Positions 37,767 to 51,928 of a stretch of 64,000 bases of DNA are shown here, one piece after another. The translations under genes and the position numbers were made by a program. The DNA is taken from contig NZ_CP137854.1 of NCBI RefSeq assembly GCF_033546935.1, positions 3,720,001 to 3,784,000 on the forward strand, written 5' to 3'. The notes beneath the pieces were generated by a model. It made no database searches and had not been told where the DNA came from. It saw only the letters and a program-made list of their open reading frames with translations. The DNA is from Xylophilus sp. GOD-11R (GTDB taxonomy: Bacteria > Pseudomonadota > Gammaproteobacteria > Burkholderiales > Burkholderiaceae_C). Numbering within the stretch: position 1 is the first letter of the stretch; every line of letters begins with the position of its first letter.

Positions 37767-38780
37767 CTACTGCTTGACCATGTTCTGCTCGGCCGCGAGC
37801 TTCTTCATGTCGGCCACTTCGCGCGCCAGATAGGCGTCGAATTCCTGCGGTTTCATGAAGGTGGTGTCGGCTCCCTCGGCGGCAAAGCGCTCTTTCAGGC
37901 TCTTGTCGGCCAGGGCGTGGCGCAGGGCGTCGGACAACCGCGCCACCACTGCCGGCGGCGTGCCCGACCGCACGACGAGGCCGAGCCAGAGTGTGTAGGT
38001 GTAGTCGACACCCTGCTCGACGAAAGTCGGCACGTCCCGCAGCGCGGCGATGCGCCGGGTGGAGCTCACCGCCAACGGCCGCAACTTGCCGGACTGCAGG
38101 TACGGCACCAGCCCGCTGTAGCCGCCGAACATCATCGAGACACGGCCGGCGACCAGGTCTGGATAGGCCGCGCCGGTGCCCTTGTAAAGCACGTTGGTGA
38201 GATCCAGGTTCTGGCTCTTCAGGAACAGCAGCGCCGAGATGTGGGGTGGCGCGCCGAGACCGCCGGAGGCGAAGCTGAGCTTCTCGATCCTTGCCCGTGC
38301 AATGAATTCCTGCAGGTTGCGACCAGGCTCCTCGCCGCCGATCACCATGACCTGGGGCGAGCGGGTCATCATGCCGATGCCCCTGAAATCGGCGAGAGGG
38401 TCGTAGCCGGGGTTGAGGTTGAGTTCGGGCAGGATCGTGAAGCCGTTGGCCTGCGCCAGCACGGTGTAGCCATCGGCCGGCGCGTCCTTTACGTACCGGG
38501 TGGCGACCAGCGTGTCGGCGCCGGGTCGGTTCTCTACCACCACCGGCTGTCCCAGGTACTCGCCCAGCTTCAACGAGACCAGCCGGGTCACGATGTCGAG
38601 CGCGCCACCGCTGGCCGACGAGACGACCATGCGGATCGGCTTGGCGGGATATTGCTCGCCCCCCTGGGACGCGGCGGCCTGCACGCCTGCTGACGGCAGC
38701 AGCAGGCACGCCGCCGCCAGCGCCGCGAGCCCAAGCAGGCAACGCCTCTTTGTTCGGGTCGTTCCCTTCGATGCCTTCAT
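37767..38780 (-). CDS. TctC/Bug-family substrate-binding protein
   Basis: A 337-residue binding protein. A signal peptide (KRRCLLGLAALAAACLLLPS, cleavage near VQAAAS) precedes PIRMVVSSASGGALDIVTR. Further motifs are VENRPGADTLVATRYVK, YKGTGAAYPDL and VPTFVEQGVDYTYTLW. It is the closest relative in the window of the 30777-31760 protein. It stands upstream of the 36562 gene with a 155-bp gap, so co-transcription is uncertain. Confidence 0.92.
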   Translation of the reverse strand: MKASKGTTRTKRRCLLGLAALAAACLLLPSAGVQAAASQGGEQYPAKPIRMVVSSASGGALDIVTRLVSLKLGEYLGQPVVVENRPGADTLVATRYVKDAPADGYTVLAQANGFTILPELNLNPGYDPLADFRGIGMMTRSPQVMVIGGEEPGRNLQEFIARARIEKLSFASGGLGAPPHISALLFLKSQNLDLTNVLYKGTGAAYPDLVAGRVSMMFGGYSGLVPYLQSGKLRPLAVSSTRRIAALRDVPTFVEQGVDYTYTLWLGLVVRSGTPPAVVARLSDALRHALADKSLKERFAAEGADTTFMKPQEFDAYLAREVADMKKLAAEQNMVKQ

Positions 38781-38833
38781 GTCTTGTCTCCATCCTTCTT
38801 TTTGTTTCGACGCGGCCGATGCCGTACGCGCCC

Positions 38834-39679
38834 CTAGTCGTCTGCCATGGTCGACAGCGAAAGCTCCTCCCAGCGGTCGAACTCCACCTCTACCGAGCGC
38901 ACCTGCTCTCGTAACGCATCGATGCAATCGCGGCCCAGCGGCAGGCGCAGCGGCGGCTCGTCGGCAGCCACCAGGCGGCACATGGCGGGGCCGAACTTGG
39001 CAGGATCGCTTTCCTGCTTGCCGTGCCGCTCGTTCACGTATCGGGAAATGCGCAGGTTGGCGGCGGCATAGTCGCCGTCTTCGCCCAGGGCCGTAACCAG
39101 CGAGGGGCCGGCGAAGTCGCTGCGGAAACCGCCCGGCTCGACGATGGTCACGCGAATGCCGAGTTCACGTGTCTCGGCCTGGACCGACTCCGAAAAACCC
39201 TCCACCGCGAACTTGGAGGCGCAATACATCGAGAAGCCGGTCACGCCGATGAAACCGGCCTTGGACGACAGGTTGATGATGTGGCCCGACCGTTGGCGCC
39301 GCATGATGGGCAGCACCGCCTTGGTCATTTCCACCAGCCCGAAGAAGTTGACCTCGAACATCGCTCGGTATTTGTCGACCGGCGTGGCTTCGGCCACCGC
39401 CATCAGGCCGTAGCCGGCGTTGTTGACCAGCACGTCGATGCGGCCGAAGGCCTGCTCGGCCAGCGCAACCACCTCGGCGAAACGGTGGTGATCGCGGGCG
39501 TCGAGGTGAATGGCGCGAAAGCGGTCCGGGTACTCGGCCGACAGCACGTGGCTGCCGTCGGCGGCCAGCACCGTCACGACGACCTGGTCGCCCTGTTCCA
39601 GAGCCGCCTTGGCGGTGGAAAGGCCGAGGCCCTTGTCCGCGCCTGTGATCAGCCACGTGCGCTTGCGCTGTCCTGTCAT
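38834..39679 (-). CDS. SDR-family oxidoreductase
   Basis: A 281-residue short-chain dehydrogenase with TWLITGADKGLGLSTAKAAL (cofactor), VLVNNAGYGLMAVAEA, catalytic Ser in INLSSKAGFIGVTG and YCASKFAVEGFSE. It resembles classical NADP-dependent SDRs of the retinol/oxidoreductase type with a long C-terminus. It follows the aldehyde dehydrogenase gene by 37 bp, probably as an operon. Substrate unknown. Confidence 0.9.
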   Translation of the reverse strand: MTGQRKRTWLITGADKGLGLSTAKAALEQGDQVVVTVLAADGSHVLSAEYPDRFRAIHLDARDHHRFAEVVALAEQAFGRIDVLVNNAGYGLMAVAEATPVDKYRAMFEVNFFGLVEMTKAVLPIMRRQRSGHIINLSSKAGFIGVTGFSMYCASKFAVEGFSESVQAETRELGIRVTIVEPGGFRSDFAGPSLVTALGEDGDYAAANLRISRYVNERHGKQESDPAKFGPAMCRLVAADEPPLRLPLGRDCIDALREQVRSVEVEFDRWEELSLSTMADD

Positions 39680-42387: not shown

Positions 42388-44289
42388 TCAGCCGTCCGGC
42401 CCGGTACACCGTCGCAGGTCGCCCGAGCGCCGGGTGACGCCGATACGGTCCAGATGCTCCAGCACCTCGATCGCGAGGTTGCGCCCCACCGCCGCCGCGT
42501 CACGGAAGCCGGCCGCCCCGAAACCGCCCCCGGCCTGCTCGCGGTCCAGCGTGCGGGCCAGGTCGGCGAAGGTATGCACGGTTTCTGCCAGCGCAAAACG
42601 TTCGCCGCTCAGCCGCACGACCGGTCCGGTCTCGCTCTTGCGGTGCAGGAACTCGCGCAGCTGCTGGTAAGGCACACCCGAGGCTTTCGCCAGCTGCCGC
42701 ACCGCCGGCACCGCGTGGCCGGCTTGCATCAGATGCGGCCGCACGCGCTGCCATACCGCCGTGTCGCGCGGGTTATCGGTGGGGTCGTGGCCTACCAGGC
42801 GCAGACGCATCGCGTCCAACCCCACCACACCGGGCGGCAGTTGCCGGCGCAGCAGCGCCACGAAGCGCTCGCCCGGCATAGAACGCGCCAGTTCGCCGCG
42901 CAGTGCCCCCGGTGGCATGCCAGCCTCGGCAGGTTGCTCGGCATGGAAACGTGCCAGCCGCAAGGGCGTCTCACGCATCAGCCGCTCTACCGTCGGCGCT
43001 GGCAGCGCCACCGGGCCGGGGGCCTGCACCAGCACCGCGTCGGGTGGCAACGCGGCCTGCACCTGAGCAGGCCGCAGGTTGAACACACGTGCCACCCAGG
43101 CCAGGTCGAGCCCGGCGTCATCGATCGCCAGCAGTTCCGGCAGTGCATCCTTCGCACCGCCACGAGACAGTGCCTGCAGCACCTTGGCGCGGCGTTCGGC
43201 CCGAGTTGGCCCGGGCTCGGAGTCCAACACTACGCCGCCGGCCAAGGTGATGCTTGCCGACTGGTCGCGCAGCACGATGCGGTCGCCGTGGGCAGCATGC
43301 ACAGGCCGCGCAAGCCGCAGCTGCGCGAAGCCCGACTCACCCGGCGCGATGCCCGCGCCCCGGGGCAACGCCAGCCGCGCCGGCACGTCTGCGGCACCGA
43401 CGTGTACATGCAGCTGCGCCCAGTGGCGCAGCGCGGCGGGTGCGGAGTCCAGCACTCGCAGGCGGATGTCCAGGGTCTGCACGGGCTGCACCGGCTGGCG
43501 GGCCGGGGCCTCGACCAGCCAGTCGCCCCGGCGGACCTCGCTGCGTTCGATGCGCGAAAGGTTCACCGCACAGCGTTCACCCGCGCGCGCTCTCTCCACC
43601 GTGCCGCCGTGGCGTTGCAGCTTGCGCACCCGTGCCGGCTTGCCCGAAGGTGCGATCAGCAACTGGTCACCAGAGGCCAGCGAACCGGCGATGACGGTGC
43701 CGGTCACCACCGTTCCGCTGCCGGCGATGGTGAATGCGCGGTCCACCACGTAGCGCAGTGGCTGCGTGTCAGTACCGTCGTCCCGGCGCCAGGCGGTCGC
43801 AACTCCGGTGAGGTGGTCGCGCAGCAGATCCAGGCCATGCCGCGTGGGCGCGCTGAATTCCAGCAGCGCGGCGTGCCGCAACACCGTGCCGCGTACCAGT
43901 GCGCGCAACTCGTCGCGCACGTGGGCCAACCGGTCCTCGTCGACCCGATCGCACTTGGTGATGACCAGCGTGCCGCCGGCCACGCCGAGGAGGTCCACGA
44001 TCTGCAGGTGTTCGCGGGTCTGCGGCATCACGCCGTCGTCGGCGGCCACCACCAACAGCACATGCCCCACCGCATAGACGCCGCCGAGCATGTTGCGAAC
44101 GAAACGCTCGTGGCCGGGCACGTCGACGAACGCGACGGTGTGGCCCGCCAGCTCGCAATGGGCGAAGCCGGGCTCGATCGAAATGCCGCGCGCCTTCTCT
44201 TCGGGCAGGCGATCGGTGTCCACCCCGGTGAGCAGGCCCACCAACGTGGTCTTGCCGTGGTCGATGTGACCGGCCGTAGCGATGATCAC
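42388..44289 (-). CDS. selB: Selenocysteine-specific elongation factor SelB
   Basis: A 633-residue translation factor that brings Sec-tRNA(Sec) to UGA codons marked by a SECIS. The GTPase domain shows G1 AGHIDHGKTTL (6-16), DVPGHERF (56-63) and TKCD (111-114). The C-terminus carries the winged-helix repeats that bind SECIS RNA (region ending HTFADLARTLDREQ...FRDAAAVGRNLAIEVLEHLD). The GTG at 44289 puts the P-loop at the family's usual position. It is 19 bp downstream of the reductase gene and near tRNA-Sec. With the UGA selenoprotein it makes a functional Sec-decoding unit; selA and selD are not here. Confidence 0.97.
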   Translation of the reverse strand: MIIATAGHIDHGKTTLVGLLTGVDTDRLPEEKARGISIEPGFAHCELAGHTVAFVDVPGHERFVRNMLGGVYAVGHVLLVVAADDGVMPQTREHLQIVDLLGVAGGTLVITKCDRVDEDRLAHVRDELRALVRGTVLRHAALLEFSAPTRHGLDLLRDHLTGVATAWRRDDGTDTQPLRYVVDRAFTIAGSGTVVTGTVIAGSLASGDQLLIAPSGKPARVRKLQRHGGTVERARAGERCAVNLSRIERSEVRRGDWLVEAPARQPVQPVQTLDIRLRVLDSAPAALRHWAQLHVHVGAADVPARLALPRGAGIAPGESGFAQLRLARPVHAAHGDRIVLRDQSASITLAGGVVLDSEPGPTRAERRAKVLQALSRGGAKDALPELLAIDDAGLDLAWVARVFNLRPAQVQAALPPDAVLVQAPGPVALPAPTVERLMRETPLRLARFHAEQPAEAGMPPGALRGELARSMPGERFVALLRRQLPPGVVGLDAMRLRLVGHDPTDNPRDTAVWQRVRPHLMQAGHAVPAVRQLAKASGVPYQQLREFLHRKSETGPVVRLSGERFALAETVHTFADLARTLDREQAGGGFGAAGFRDAAAVGRNLAIEVLEHLDRIGVTRRSGDLRRCTGPDG

Positions 44290-44308: not shown

Positions 44309-45214
44309 TCAGGCGTGCGCCGCTGCGCCCAGCCGCGCCACGGCGGAGCGTGCCGCAGCGATGCCGTCGGCCACCGCGTCGGCCAATGCACCACCACAGC
44401 CCGCCCGCACCGCGCCGGCCGCATATACGCCCGGCAACGCGGTCTGCAGTCCCGGTCCGGTCACGATGCGGCCGTTGGCGTCGCGCTCGATCGCAACTGG
44501 CAGGTAGCCGGAGGACGGCACCAGGCCGACATAGGCGAAGACACCGGTGGCGGCCAGCAGCGCGGTGCCGACCCGCACGCCCTCCACTCCTTCGGCGCCC
44601 ACGATCTCGGATACCTCGCTGCCGGCATGTACCTCGATCGCTGACGTGGCCCGCACGGTCTCGACAAAGGCCGGTTTGGCGGTGAAGGCCGGGCCGCGAT
44701 GCACCAGGTGGACCTTGCCCGCGTACTGCGCCAGCACCAATGCCGACTGCAGCGCCGAGTCGCCGCCGCCCACTACCACCACCGTCTGACCCAGGAACAT
44801 GGGGCCGTCGCAGTCGGCGCAGTGCGACACGCCCCGGCCGTCGAACTCGGCTTCGCCGGGCACACCGAGCTTGCGCAGCCCGGCGCCCGAAGCCACCACC
44901 ACTGCTCGCGCGCGGTGGGTGCCAGCGTCGCTGGCGACCAGCAGCGCATCGCCCGCCGCCTCGATGCCGCGCACCTCGGCCTCGATGCTCTCGGCGCCGG
45001 CCTCCAGCACCTCGTTCACCAGGTTGGACGCGTACTCCGCGCCGCTGCCCTGCACCGCGCCCTCCAGTTCGTTCACGTTCAGGACGAGGCCGCCGAACAT
45101 CTTCGATTCGAAATAGGCGACGGACAGGCCGTCGCCCAGGGCCTGGCGCACGGCAGAAAGCCCGGCGACGCCGGCTCCGATGACCACGAGGTCGTGTTGG
45201 GTGGTGGTGTTCAT
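44309..45214 (-). CDS. Thioredoxin-reductase-like FAD-dependent disulfide oxidoreductase
   Basis: A 301-residue flavoprotein of the bacterial thioredoxin reductase group: FAD motif VVIGAGVAGLSAV, NAD(P) motif VVVVGGGDSALQSAL, and a redox-active CADC (residues 132-135). Length and order fit the low-molecular-weight TrxR. Start 45214 (MNTTTQHDLVVIGAG) lies 24 bp from the end of tRNA-Sec, with selB directly downstream. It is likely the reductase for the UGSC selenoprotein or its thioredoxin partner. That is inferred from context. Confidence 0.92.
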   Translation of the reverse strand: MNTTTQHDLVVIGAGVAGLSAVRQALGDGLSVAYFESKMFGGLVLNVNELEGAVQGSGAEYASNLVNEVLEAGAESIEAEVRGIEAAGDALLVASDAGTHRARAVVVASGAGLRKLGVPGEAEFDGRGVSHCADCDGPMFLGQTVVVVGGGDSALQSALVLAQYAGKVHLVHRGPAFTAKPAFVETVRATSAIEVHAGSEVSEIVGAEGVEGVRVGTALLAATGVFAYVGLVPSSGYLPVAIERDANGRIVTGPGLQTALPGVYAAGAVRAGCGGALADAVADGIAAARSAVARLGAAAHA

Positions 45215-45237: not shown

Positions 45238-45331
45238 TGGCGGAGGAGAGTGGGAGTCGAACCCACGCGGGATCGCTGCGACCCCCACCGGCTTTGAAGG
45301 CCGGCCATCCCACCGGAGATGTTTCTCTTCC
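45238..45331 (-). tRNA. selC: tRNA-Sec (anticodon UCA)
   Basis: The minus strand reads GGAAGAGA... with the long D-stem, the anticodon loop CTTCAAA (UCA, complement at 45295-45297), a long variable arm (GGGGGTCGCAGCGATCCC), TTCGACTCC T-loop and encoded CCA (45238-45240). It is 94 bases long, matching bacterial tRNA-Sec with an 8-bp acceptor stem. The acceptor stem has one A-C mismatch (position 4, against the 3' CCTCC). It lies at the head of the reductase/selB genes. Confidence 0.97.
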
Positions 45332-45426: not shown

Positions 45427-46416
45427 TCACTCCGGCTCGATTCCTGCCGCGCGGATCACCCGGCCCGTCTTCTCCGTCTCCTCGGCCTGAAAGCGGGCCA
45501 GTCCCTCGGGTGTGCTGGTGACGATAGTGGTCACGTTGGTGGTTTCGAACGTTTTCATTTCCGGGGCCTCGAGCGACTTGTGCACCATGGTGTTGAGCCG
45601 CTCGGTGAGCGCCGGGGAAGCTCCCGCCGGCAGGTAGAGGCCGGTCCAGACAGCCAGTTCGAAGCCCTTGACGCCGGCCTGGTCCATGGTCGGCACCGCT
45701 GGCAGACGACTCAGGCGCTCAGCGCCCGATACCGCCAACGCCCGCAGCTTGCCGCTGGCGACCTGCGGCAGCGCGGTCGGTCCGTCGGTGAAGAGAAAGT
45801 CGACCTGGCCGCCCAGCAGGTCGGCCACGGCCTGCGGGTTGCTCTTGTAGGGCACGTGAACCAGTTGCAGGCCGGCGGTCTGGCGGAACATCTCGGCGGC
45901 GATTCGGGCGGTGGCGCTACCCGCGCCGTAGGTCACCTGGCCCGGCTCCCTGCGTGCGTGGGCGACCAGGTCGGCCATTGACATCACCGGCGATGCCGAG
46001 TTGACCAGCAGCACCATGAAACCCTTGTAGACCAAGCTCACCGGCGTGAAATCCTTCACCGGATCGAACGGCAGGTTCTTGTAGAGAAATACACCTGCCG
46101 ATTGGGTTGTGCCACCCGACAGCAGCAGGGTGTAGCCGTCCGGCGGCGCCTTGGCCACGAAACGCGCAGCAATAAAGCCGTTGGCGCCCGGCCGGTTGTC
46201 TATCAGCACCGGCACCTTGTATTGCTCCGACATGCGCTGGGCCATCAGCCGCGCCACCTGGTCGGTGCCGCTGCCGGCCTGGTAGGGCAGCACGATGGTG
46301 ATCGGCCGACGGGGAAAGTCGTCTACCGCGAACCCCGTCCCCGGCCAGGCCCAGGACGACGCGCCGATCACGACCAGCGTTGCCGCCCGGCGACGTGAAA
46401 TGAATACCTCGCGCAT
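45427..46416 (-). CDS. TctC/Bug-family substrate-binding protein
   Basis: A 329-residue periplasmic binding protein. Its signal peptide (RRRAATLVVIGASSWAWPGT, cleavage near GFAVD) precedes PITIVLPYQAGSGTDQVAR. Motifs: IDNRPGANGFIAARFV, HVPYKSNPQAVADLLGG and PTMDQAGVKGF. The AAGGAGAC ribosome-binding site lies just after the selenoprotein stop (46442). It is therefore in the same operon as the UGSC selenoprotein and probably binds its substrate or a related organic acid. Confidence 0.92.
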   Translation of the reverse strand: MREVFISRRRAATLVVIGASSWAWPGTGFAVDDFPRRPITIVLPYQAGSGTDQVARLMAQRMSEQYKVPVLIDNRPGANGFIAARFVAKAPPDGYTLLLSGGTTQSAGVFLYKNLPFDPVKDFTPVSLVYKGFMVLLVNSASPVMSMADLVAHARREPGQVTYGAGSATARIAAEMFRQTAGLQLVHVPYKSNPQAVADLLGGQVDFLFTDGPTALPQVASGKLRALAVSGAERLSRLPAVPTMDQAGVKGFELAVWTGLYLPAGASPALTERLNTMVHKSLEAPEMKTFETTNVTTIVTSTPEGLARFQAEETEKTGRVIRAAGIEPE

Positions 46417-46441: not shown

Positions 46442-48166
46442 TCAGCCAGCCCCGCTGCTTTGCAAATCAATCTTTTTGGTGGTGGGGAAACCCAGCCGGC
46501 CGTTGTGCCCGAAGGTGTAGCCGTGATTGCGCAGCGGGTCGCCGGTGACCACCAACATGATGTGTTCCGGCGCCCAGACGATAGGCACGAGCCGGTTGGG
46601 GTCGTCCGAGGTGCCGTAGAGCTCGCGTGGCATGTTGCCGGCGGCCACCTGCTCGGCCAGGTTCCAGATGGCGTGGTCCTTCCAGTCGCGCAGCATGCGT
46701 TCGAACTGCCATGCAGGGATGCGGCATTGCTCGAACAGGAAGCGCTTCACGTCGTCCTTGGACCAGCCGCAGGCCGCGATAGTCTCGGCGACGATCGGCG
46801 TGATGAGCGCCAGCGGCCGCAGCGTGCCGAAAGCCGCGCCCATGGTGAAGGAGATCTGCCAGTGGGTCTGGTTGACGATGCTGTCGGCCAGGTAGGGCAG
46901 CAGCTTCTCGGGCGTGTTGCCGGACATGGAAGTGACCATGCCGCCACCCGTATAGCGCGCGATCGTGACCGTGCTGTCGTCCGGCCCCAGCCCCATGTCC
47001 ACGCTGAGCGGCTGCCAGCCGATGCGGCGCACTACCTCGTCGTTCTCGGCGATGACCACGCGCCAGGTGTTGCCGAAGCAGCCCTTGTCGGTCTTGTGCG
47101 GCAGAAAGCCCGCCACGTTGCGCAGGTAGAGCCGCCAGAAGCGGCCCACCGACGTATTGGGCTGGAAGCCGTCGCGCATCACACCCTGGGTGTAGTTGAA
47201 ACCCAGCTTCTGGATCACCGGCCCGTTGAGGATTACCAGCGTGTCGCCACCGGGCGTGTTGCCGCTGTGCTCGTTGCCATAGCCGGGGTCGCACATGGCG
47301 TCGATCATGCTGACCAATAGCGGCATGTATTCGGGCCGGCAGCCGGCCATGACGCCGTTGACCGCCACGTTCCACACGGTGGCGACACGATTGTCGGGCA
47401 GCAGCACGCCGAGCACCTCGTCGGGGCTGCGCCGGGTGTGCGCCAGGAAGGCCTCGATGCGCTCGCGCGTGGGCGGCACCACCGGCAGGCCGTCGCTCCA
47501 TTCGCGTTCGATGAAGTATTCGTTGAGCTCGGTCAGTCCGCCGCGAAACACCACGTCACGCGGATCGGGCTCGCGTTCGCCGCCGCCCTGCGCGGCCATC
47601 GATGTGGTGAGGTTGTCGATCACCTCGGTCAGCGTGTGCTCGCGGAAGTTGTCGCGCACCTGCTCTGTCGTCTGCACGCCCGGGTGACCGACGATGGTCG
47701 CCCACGGGAGATCGCGGAAGCCGAGTCCGACACGGGTGGCCTTGGCCTGCGAGACGAAACCCGCCGACACCAGGGACGAAGATGGGATCCCCGCCGCCTC
47801 GCACGCTGCACTGGCCCGCAACACGGCGGGCGTACAGCTGCCTCAGGCGGCGACGGACGTAATGACCGCGTCGATGCCGGCGGCTTTGAGCTTGGCGGGC
47901 AACTCGGCCACCATCCGGCGCTCGTCGTTGCCATGAATGCTGCCCCACTCGTCCCAGTGGGAGAAGCTGATGCCGGGGTAGCGTTTGGTGAACTCTTCCT
48001 GGATGACCCCGTACATCGCGTCGCCGCGAAACAGGTAGTCCCAGAGAAAGGCAATGCGCTTGCCGTCGAGCGTTGCCGGGCGCGGCGCCAGTTGCTTGCT
48101 GGTGACCTTGCGCACTCCGCGCGGCCAGTAGGCCTCGAAGTAGCCGTCGTTGGGGGTGGAATCCAT
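46442..48166 (-). CDS. UGSC-family selenoprotein with in-frame UGA (Sec) at residue 108
   Basis: A 574-residue protein if UGA at 47843-47845 is read as Sec: the frame is exact, giving SVAAUGSCTPAVLRASAACE. The N-terminal part (ATG 48166, after a GAGG ribosome-binding site) is an alpha/beta domain (GKRIAFLWDYLFRGDAMYGV) leading to the U-G-S-C redox motif. The C-terminal part (about 145-574) has no domain I can name; conserved-looking parts are SDGLPVVPPTRERIEAF, NTPGGDTLVILNGP and ARYTGGGMVTSMSG. A 13-bp SECIS-like hairpin follows the UGA. UGSC proteins are a known bacterial selenoprotein family with unclear function. A gene caller would split this at the UGA. Confidence 0.93.
47805..47838 (-). 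ncRNA. SECIS-like mRNA hairpin for UGA recoding
   Basis: Counted from the base after the UGA, nucleotides 5-38 fold as GCUGUAC/GUGCAGC (7 bp, one G-U), a 2-base CA bulge, GCCCGC/GCGGGC (6 bp) and loop CGUGUU (18-23). Position and GU-containing loop match bacterial SelB-binding SECIS elements. The fold was checked by hand only. Confidence 0.8.
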
Positions 48167-50919: not shown

Positions 50920-50944
50920 CATGGCACAAATAACGGAGACAAAC

Positions 50945-51928
50945 ATGACAAACAGACGGACTTTGCTGAAAGCCGGTGCCCTGCTGGGTGCCGCATCCGG
51001 TCAGTGCGCGCTGCGTGCCCAGAGCAACGGAAAAACCGTTCGGCTGGTGATCGGCTTCCTGCCGGGCGGCGTCACCGACGTGATCGCCCGGACGCTTGCC
51101 GACGGCCTGAACAAGCTCAACCCTGGCGCACAGGTCATCGTGGACTCGCGCCCTGGAGCCAGCGGCCGCATAGCGGTGCTCAACGCGAAAAACAGCCCGC
51201 CGGACGGCACCACGCTGTTGCTGTCGCCCGGCAACGTGCTCACGCTGCTGCCGCATTTCTTCAAGAACGACGATCTCGATCCGATGGTCGACCTTGTACC
51301 CGTGGCAGGCGTGTTCGCCTTCGCGTACGTGTTCTCGGTAGGGCCGGCAGTGCCGGCGTCGGTGGTGACGATGAAGGACTATCTTGCCTGGGCCAAGGCC
51401 CATCCGGAAAAGGCAACATTCGCGGGTATTTCAGCGGCGCCACAGCACCTGCTGACGGCCCAACTCTCGCGAACTTCCAGCACACCGCTCACGCTGGTCC
51501 CCTACAAGGGCGGTGGTCCGCTGATGGTGCAGGACGTGTTGCGCGGCGACGTGCCCGCCGTCGCGCAAATCACCGGTGACGCCCTCCAGTGGCAGGGGCC
51601 GGACAAGCTGCGCACCCTGGCCAGTTTCACCAAGGCGCGCTCGCCCTTCCTGCCCGATGTGCCGACCATCGGCGAAGCCGGATTCCCCGACCTGATGGTG
51701 TCCGACTGGGGCGCGGTTTACGCGCCACGGGGCACGCCGCCAGCCATCGTCAAGCGCTGGAGCGAGGCGATCCAGCAGGTGGTTTCGCAGCCGTCCTTCA
51801 AGGCCGCAACTGCAATGCAGGGCGCCGAGCCCTATCCGACCAACGCCATGCAGATTGCCCAGACCATGCGTGAGGACACGCCTTTTTGGGGCAGGCTCGT
51901 CGCGTCCACCGGGGTGACGATGCAATGA
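50945..51928 (+). CDS. TctC/Bug-family substrate-binding protein
   Basis: A 327-residue periplasmic binding protein with an N-terminal RRTLLKAGALLGAASG (Tat-like RR but no full Tat motif) and Bug motifs TVRLVIGFLPGGVTDVIAR, VDSRPGASGRIAVL, VPYKGGGPLMVQDV and PTIGEAGFPD. A GGAG ribosome-binding site lies 5 bases before the ATG at 50945. Its stop overlaps the GMC oxidoreductase ATG (ATGA), implying a shared substrate. Confidence 0.93.
   Translation: MTNRRTLLKAGALLGAASGQCALRAQSNGKTVRLVIGFLPGGVTDVIARTLADGLNKLNPGAQVIVDSRPGASGRIAVLNAKNSPPDGTTLLLSPGNVLTLLPHFFKNDDLDPMVDLVPVAGVFAFAYVFSVGPAVPASVVTMKDYLAWAKAHPEKATFAGISAAPQHLLTAQLSRTSSTPLTLVPYKGGGPLMVQDVLRGDVPAVAQITGDALQWQGPDKLRTLASFTKARSPFLPDVPTIGEAGFPDLMVSDWGAVYAPRGTPPAIVKRWSEAIQQVVSQPSFKAATAMQGAEPYPTNAMQIAQTMREDTPFWGRLVASTGVTMQ

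Follow-up and report, generated by a model that had tools for sequence, protein, structure and literature searches.

Can a UGA codon that interrupts an otherwise open gene be read as selenocysteine (Sec), and what might the resulting protein do? The question is raised by a gene on the minus strand of a 64,000-nucleotide stretch of Xylophilus sp. GOD-11R DNA (contig NZ_CP137854.1, positions 3,720,001 to 3,784,000; the window), which an earlier reading of the bare DNA letters, here called the original prediction, had taken for a hidden selenoprotein of the UGSC family. The sequence comparisons reported below make it nearly certain that the UGA at 47845-47843 is a Sec codon, as predicted. We further consider it fairly probable that the 574-residue product is a protein related to PrdB and GrdB, likely a reductase whose Sec would attack the substrate and be recharged by a neighbouring flavoprotein. 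Three elements go beyond the original prediction: the relation to PrdB/GrdB, the fusion to a second conserved domain, and the finding that the neighbouring selB and tRNA-Sec genes are the second such set of this genome.

Results

The reading frame and its UGA

Read from 48166 to 46442, the frame has the TGA at residue 108 as its sole internal interruption. The two flanking minus-strand open reading frames (48370-47843 and 47824-46442) share one frame and are separated by this single TGA, with six codons between it and the GTG at 47824, just as the original prediction had described; translation through the codon returns the proposed motif, SVAAUGSCTPAVLRAS, and the proposed length. The family assignment also held, the Pfam UGSC domain (PF24696) matching residues 13-187 across the TGA with 96.9 bits against a gathering cut-off of 25 (E = 1.9e-27); a single domain running through the TGA, and TGA recurring at this codon in homologous DNA, go far beyond what chance would give. 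The window gene is the one UGSC match in its own genome. The redox role given to the U-G-S-C motif in the original prediction is putative.

A homologue search of the protein database matched 3888 proteins, the best 120 of which were listed. Twelve of those listed are full-length homologues, with query coverage of 98% or more, and each of them carries Cys at position 108. The remaining 108 are pieces of 419-475 amino acids (aa) with 73-79% query coverage, and the four aligned ones begin directly past the codon, the form in which gene finders store Sec genes; the split by automatic annotation that had been foreseen is real. At the DNA level, TGA occupies the residue-108 codon in all 113 tblastn alignments covering it, a count that includes duplicate loci. 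The UGSC profile gave 169 sites in the fetched loci, 168 of them with TGA; certain genomes are represented twice among these loci, and 144 of the TGA sites are distinct in sequence. The comparison with Cys-for-Sec forms that had been suggested as a check thus finds the position conserved as Sec or Cys. In 60 aligned proteins the U/C column of the U/C-G-S-C motif is aligned in every row, and the invariant residues include D99, U/C108, C111, D225, R342, N350, E374 and W384. The one site of the 169 with a Cys codon, TGC (L010, G037:C58), lies in a frame that also contains a TAG.

A conserved hairpin past the UGA

The Sec insertion sequence (SECIS) hairpin predicted past the UGA satisfies the limits given for bacterial SECIS elements (PMC13188914, in the part describing them), with a loop of CGUGUU, 6 base pairs, 17 nucleotides (nt) and -16.5 kcal/mol over a 35-nt stretch. 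The fused class has 95 unique sites; every one of them can form the inner five pairs, and 91 can form the complete set of six. Its outer pair is G-C at 86 sites and A-T at 4, and at these 4 the codon containing the 3' side of the pair encodes Val in place of Ala. A second class of 41 sites has a stem of seven pairs, complete at each site, whose apical pair is G-C 29 times and C-G 12 times; 8 of the 144 unique sites belong to neither class. Compensatory changes preserve the hairpin stem. The codons that make up the stem are frozen across 86 close sites, that of the window among them (GCC 86, GTG 86, TTG 79, CGG 86), compared with background use in the same genes of 670 TTG per 4278 Leu codons (16%) and 569 CGG per 2992 Arg codons, and only 2 of 200 dinucleotide shuffles of the window hairpin region were as stable.

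An alternative hairpin at offset 20 past the UGA (47805-47822 in the window), overlapping the predicted SECIS element, can be drawn at 88 of the 168 sites; it may be a side effect of the codons being frozen.

Selenocysteine machinery

The host is equipped for Sec insertion: selA (647314-648687) and selD (2895658-2896584) lie on the 5.13-Mb contig, and the genome also has selB and tRNA-Sec, copies of which stand close to the gene, as had been claimed (Table 1). Among 399 genomes of the order, tRNA-Sec (at least 66 bits) occurs in 28 of the 29 with a UGSC gene containing TGA and in 79 of the 370 others, a count uncorrected for kinship. The family match, the Sec/Cys exchange, the covarying hairpin at fixed spacing, the sel genes and the co-occurrence with tRNA-Sec all support the proposal that the UGA encodes Sec.

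Profile kinship to PrdB and GrdB

On the profile evidence, the UGSC domain is a distant relative of the Sec domains in PrdB, from D-proline reductase, and GrdB, from glycine reductase. Compared by hhalign with an alignment of PrdB-like proteins, it gave a probability of 90% and a score of 50.9 over 91 columns, with the Sec residues aligned to each other; no control (SelB, TrxB-like, TctC, C-terminal domain and reversed sequences) scored above 23.3, and none of 40 column shuffles above 21.8. Against GrdB alone the match had E = 3e-4 and a probability of only 38%, and the Pfam UGSC profile made weak in-register matches to two of the four GrdB/PrdB proteins given to it (E = 0.026 and 0.25). The pattern DAV..-U-x-x-C-T-...-E..-G-(I/V)-P is common to UGSC and PrdB-like proteins, and GrdB has the part of it that starts at U.

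The predicted fold of the domain is (beta-alpha)5, five alternating strand-helix units modelled with a mean predicted local distance difference test score (pLDDT) of 89.1, in which Sec is placed just before the helix following the third strand. This appears to differ from the order of elements in thioredoxin, and the structure matches listed for the model include no thioredoxin, a result that still leaves room for such a fold.

PF07355, the family of GrdB and PrdB, matched proteins in 9 of 15 UGSC- or partner-bearing genomes searched, one being a GrdB (G306) and the others PrdB-like selenoproteins; the genome of the window had no match. Nine PrdB-like selenoproteins bear the motif UPNCTC. They occur in UGSC-bearing Burkholderiales (L178-L184, L186, L187; genomes G396, G279, G133, G090, G161, G040, G417, G306), with frames of about 400 codons compared with the 242 residues of clostridial PrdB (PMC3091704, in the part giving its length). 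At G306:C148 (L177, L188), also of Burkholderiales, a Sec-containing GrdB (VSTUGTCTRCGA) adjoins a GrdE-like gene.

The C-terminal partner domain

Pfam and NCBIfam have no match in the protein outside the UGSC domain. Relatives of the C-terminal domain are encoded alone next to stand-alone UGSC genes (e.g. G040:C2 and C3, G231:C88, G282:C22), and for this reason we regard the fusion as a joining of two subunits. The domain, modelled at pLDDT 89.7 with no good match among solved structures, is probably the 'Unknown_1' of the 2008 paper on the family (PMC2398784). Both the UGSC family and its fusion to a C-terminal domain were already described in that account.

Table 1. Positions of the gene, its elements and its neighbours in the window
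Feature	Position	Strand	Remarks
UGSC-family fusion selenoprotein gene (predicted)	46442..48166	minus	574 residues, Sec at 108, stop TGA 46444-46442
In-frame UGA, predicted Sec codon, residue 108	47843..47845	minus	TGA/Cys conservation at homologous sites
Cys111 codon, proposed resolving Cys of U-G-S-C	47834..47836	minus	Cys in 60/60 rows
Predicted SECIS hairpin GCCCGC-CGUGUU-GCGGGC	47814..47831	minus	begins 11 nt past UGA
UGSC domain, residues 13-187	47606..48130	minus	Pfam; predicted (beta-alpha)5 fold; profile relation to PrdB/GrdB Sec domains
C-terminal partner domain, residues 194-574	46445..47587	minus	relatives also stand-alone beside stand-alone UGSC genes
TctC-type periplasmic receptor of tripartite tricarboxylate transporter	45427..46416	minus	Pfam; 25 nt downstream of UGSC gene; start chosen, ATG 46416
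tRNA-Sec, window copy	45242..45331	minus	one of two in genome
Thioredoxin-reductase-like flavoprotein, proposed dedicated reductase	44309..45214	minus	C-A-D-C, 301 aa
selB2, selenocysteine-specific elongation factor	42388..44289	minus	633 aa, GTG start, one of two selB

Linked genes

The flavoprotein gene of Table 1 resembles that of thioredoxin reductase (TrxB-like), the canonical TrxB of the genome being encoded elsewhere. A TrxB-like gene lies directly 3' of the fused UGSC gene on the same strand at 8 of 60 loci and adjoins selB, again on the same strand, at 18 of 30 selB loci; it was found beside selB at 0 of 7 tested loci of the clade of SelB1, the genome's other SelB, and was absent at four of the clade that includes SelB2, on whose side one further locus has its neighbourhood cut by a contig end. 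All 11 TrxB-like proteins compared have a CxxC.

Three genes for TctC-type receptors fall within about 14 kb: that of Table 1, assigned by Pfam, and two others (37767-38981, minus; 50921-51928, plus) which we take to be TctC from their resemblance.

Two decoding sets in one genome

Both tRNA-Sec and selB are present twice in the genome. The set in the window, at about 3.77 Mb of the contig, runs on one strand as UGSC, TctC, tRNA-Sec, TrxB-like and selB2, with gaps of 25, 95, 27 and 19 nt in that order, and is without selA. The other, at about 0.65 Mb (L143, G000:C1:636001-656000), comprises a selenoprotein gene with an in-frame TGA, presumably fdnG-like to judge from its recognisable sequence, together with selA, selB1 and tRNA-Sec. 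SelB1 and SelB2 are about 40% identical. In a tree of 33 SelB proteins, a clade of 25 rows (support 100/99) unites SelB2 with the majority of SelB from the UGSC-bearing genomes searched. SelB1 groups with a SelB of G282, a genome that has two (100/99), and with one SelB of G171 (100/96). Two selB over the cut-off occur in 3 of 36 genomes, G171 (C282 and C223) being the third.

Six other genomes of the genus yielded no match to the UGSC fusion protein, and three of them have one tRNA-Sec and three have none. Variovorax sp. WDL1 (L037) and a gammaproteobacterial bin (L036) are the closest relatives; in both, a tRNA-Sec stands about 0.2 kb from the UGSC gene with selB farther out, and Variovorax sp. 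WDL1 has the TrxB-like and TctC genes as well. We infer that the window set was acquired by transfer as a module.

Discussion

Since the UGSC domain is related by profile to PrdB and GrdB, the fusion protein likely works as a reductase, and the same kinship, together with the gene linkage, leads us to propose the same chemistry for it. SelB2 would bind the hairpin (47831-47814) and bring the Sec-tRNA of the adjacent tRNA-Sec gene, with SelA and SelD functions supplied from elsewhere in the genome. For PrdB, the cited passage describes a proposal in which Sec, by attacking the bound substrate at its alpha carbon, forms a selenoether that is resolved by a Cys, after which the Se-S bond is reduced (PMC3091704); by inference from this, Sec108 would attack an activated substrate carbon and Cys111 would free the product, leaving an Se-S bond. 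The TrxB-like flavoprotein might then reduce this bond with NAD(P)H, much as glycine reductase draws on thioredoxin reductase according to the same source (PMC3091704). The C-terminal domain perhaps binds or activates the substrate, taking the place of GrdE/PrdA, and the substrate could be an imported organic acid, of which the adjacent TctC receptor gives a weak hint.

A number of results weigh against this proposal. The link to PrdB/GrdB covers 48-91 columns only; PF07355 did not list the window protein at E up to 10, where the HMMER filters drop most matches above 0.1, so that we speak of a distant relative and not of a PF07355 member. Its own genome has no PF09338 (GrdE/PrdA) partner, and the C-terminal domain compared with one GrdE-like protein (L188) gave a probability of 0.1%. 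No TrxB-like gene stands beside 12 of the 30 selB or beside most UGSC genes, and TctC genes are common in these genomes at all distances (17-30%). The protein reaches 45.8 bits with the NCBIfam equivalog NF041046 (UGSC_fam), below the cut-off of 125 bits, and for this reason it is filed under PF24696 and not under that equivalog. Lastly, the energy of the window hairpin is not unusual among synonymous recodings (z = -0.66, 24% as low).

Might the UGA simply be a stop in this strain, leaving either a decayed Sec gene or two separate proteins? The GTG at 47824 offers the downstream frame a start, but this start falls within the UGSC domain and would cut it; the hairpin, the frozen codons and the intact C-terminal frame, the complete Sec machinery with selB and tRNA-Sec adjacent, and the near-universal retention of TGA at homologous sites make this explanation very improbable. 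A different function for the selenoprotein deserves more weight, namely that of a thiol-disulfide or peroxide-type oxidoreductase of thioredoxin-like fold, as suggested in 2008, instead of a PrdB-like substrate reductase. The table of that paper gives UxxC in several thioredoxin-like families (PMC2398784, in the part listing them), and a TrxB-like reductase is linked to the gene here; yet the confident model with its strand-helix units and position of Sec, and the profile comparison, whose controls contained no thioredoxin alignment, favour PrdB/GrdB, and we hold the thioredoxin-like function to be rather unlikely.

The second selB/tRNA-Sec set raises a separate choice. It may be a redundant passenger, SelB1 and SelB2 serving formate dehydrogenase and UGSC alike, and we give this about even chances: G-U is found in both SECIS loops (AGGUCU for fdnG, CGUGUU for UGSC), and 32 of the 35 genomes having selB over the cut-off manage with a single one, but the two SelB have diverged into separate supported clades, and the UGSC-side set is linked to UGSC, TrxB-like and TctC genes in Variovorax sp. 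WDL1 also. Because both loops contain G-U, separate reading by the two SelB proteins is offered here as a hypothesis only. In its fullest and most tentative form, which we think doubtful, two separate Sec codes would coexist, SelB1 with its tRNA-Sec serving formate dehydrogenase and the transferred SelB2, with a tRNA-Sec of its own, the UGSC hairpin only, and UGSC would be a new PrdB-type branch that splits imported acids with a Sec half, a substrate half and a dedicated flavoprotein whose gene adjoins that of SelB2.

How does the protein that we propose as a PrdB/GrdB-related reductase compare with known systems? With the UGSC family of Zhang and Gladyshev (2008; PF24696) it shares, as the cited part describes, the domain, the U-G-S-C motif, the Sec/Cys exchange and a fusion, there with an 'Unknown_1' domain (PMC2398784); its additional features are linkage to a TrxB-like gene and to a second set of selB and tRNA-Sec. 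The passages cited from that account make no mention of profile kinship to PrdB/GrdB and propose a thioredoxin-like fold, unlike the one predicted here (PMC2398784). Specialists may find novelty in this kinship, in the linkage to the flavoprotein and in the presence of a second set of decoding genes. Like PrdB and GrdB, the protein aligns Sec on Sec in UxxCT...E..G(I/V)P and pairs with a second subunit, and the linked TrxB-like gene recalls the feeding of glycine reductase by thioredoxin reductase (PMC3091704, same passage); unlike them, it is without a PF07355 match and a pyruvoyl-type partner (PF09338) and is fused to another domain. The fdoGHI-selABCD formate dehydrogenase clusters, whose transfer among Proteobacteria is mentioned in the cited part of PMC8124441, are likewise cases of selenoprotein genes that move together with a selB and selC of their own, whereas here the cargo is UGSC, the set has no selA and an fdn-selA-selB-tRNA-Sec cluster is already present in the host. 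A genome with two tRNA-Sec/sel sets has a parallel in Photobacterium profundum 3TCK, for which two complete sel operons are described (PMC5330540, cited part); the second set here differs in belonging to another SelB clade and being tied to another selenoprotein family.

UGSC proteins are among the commonest selenoproteins of the Global Ocean Sampling metagenomes, according to the parts cited (PMC2398784, PMC9402790), and a 2026 review, in its relevant passage, counts them among selenoproteins with largely uncharacterized functions (PMC13188914). The PrdB/GrdB kinship and the TrxB-like/SelB linkage would provide a testable proposal for the function of this family. Whether SelB-SECIS pairs can stay apart could be tested directly in a genome with two decoding sets. 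For annotation, many close relatives are deposited as pieces without the active-site residue.

Other UGSC loci

UGSC and partner-domain genes are expanded inside single genomes (22 matches in G040, 8 in G047). At eight loci (L041, L047, L048, L053, L055, L057, L058, L106) a UGSC gene of another subtype (UGSCSSWS or similar) lies a few kb from the fused gene. Metagenome bins titled Bordetella parapertussis, Chitinophaga pinensis or Chloroflexi (L041, L053, L064, L071, L075, L082, L088, L093, L094, L102, L103, L105, L106; L062; L101) carry UGSC genes like those of betaproteobacterial bins, and these titles may be wrong.
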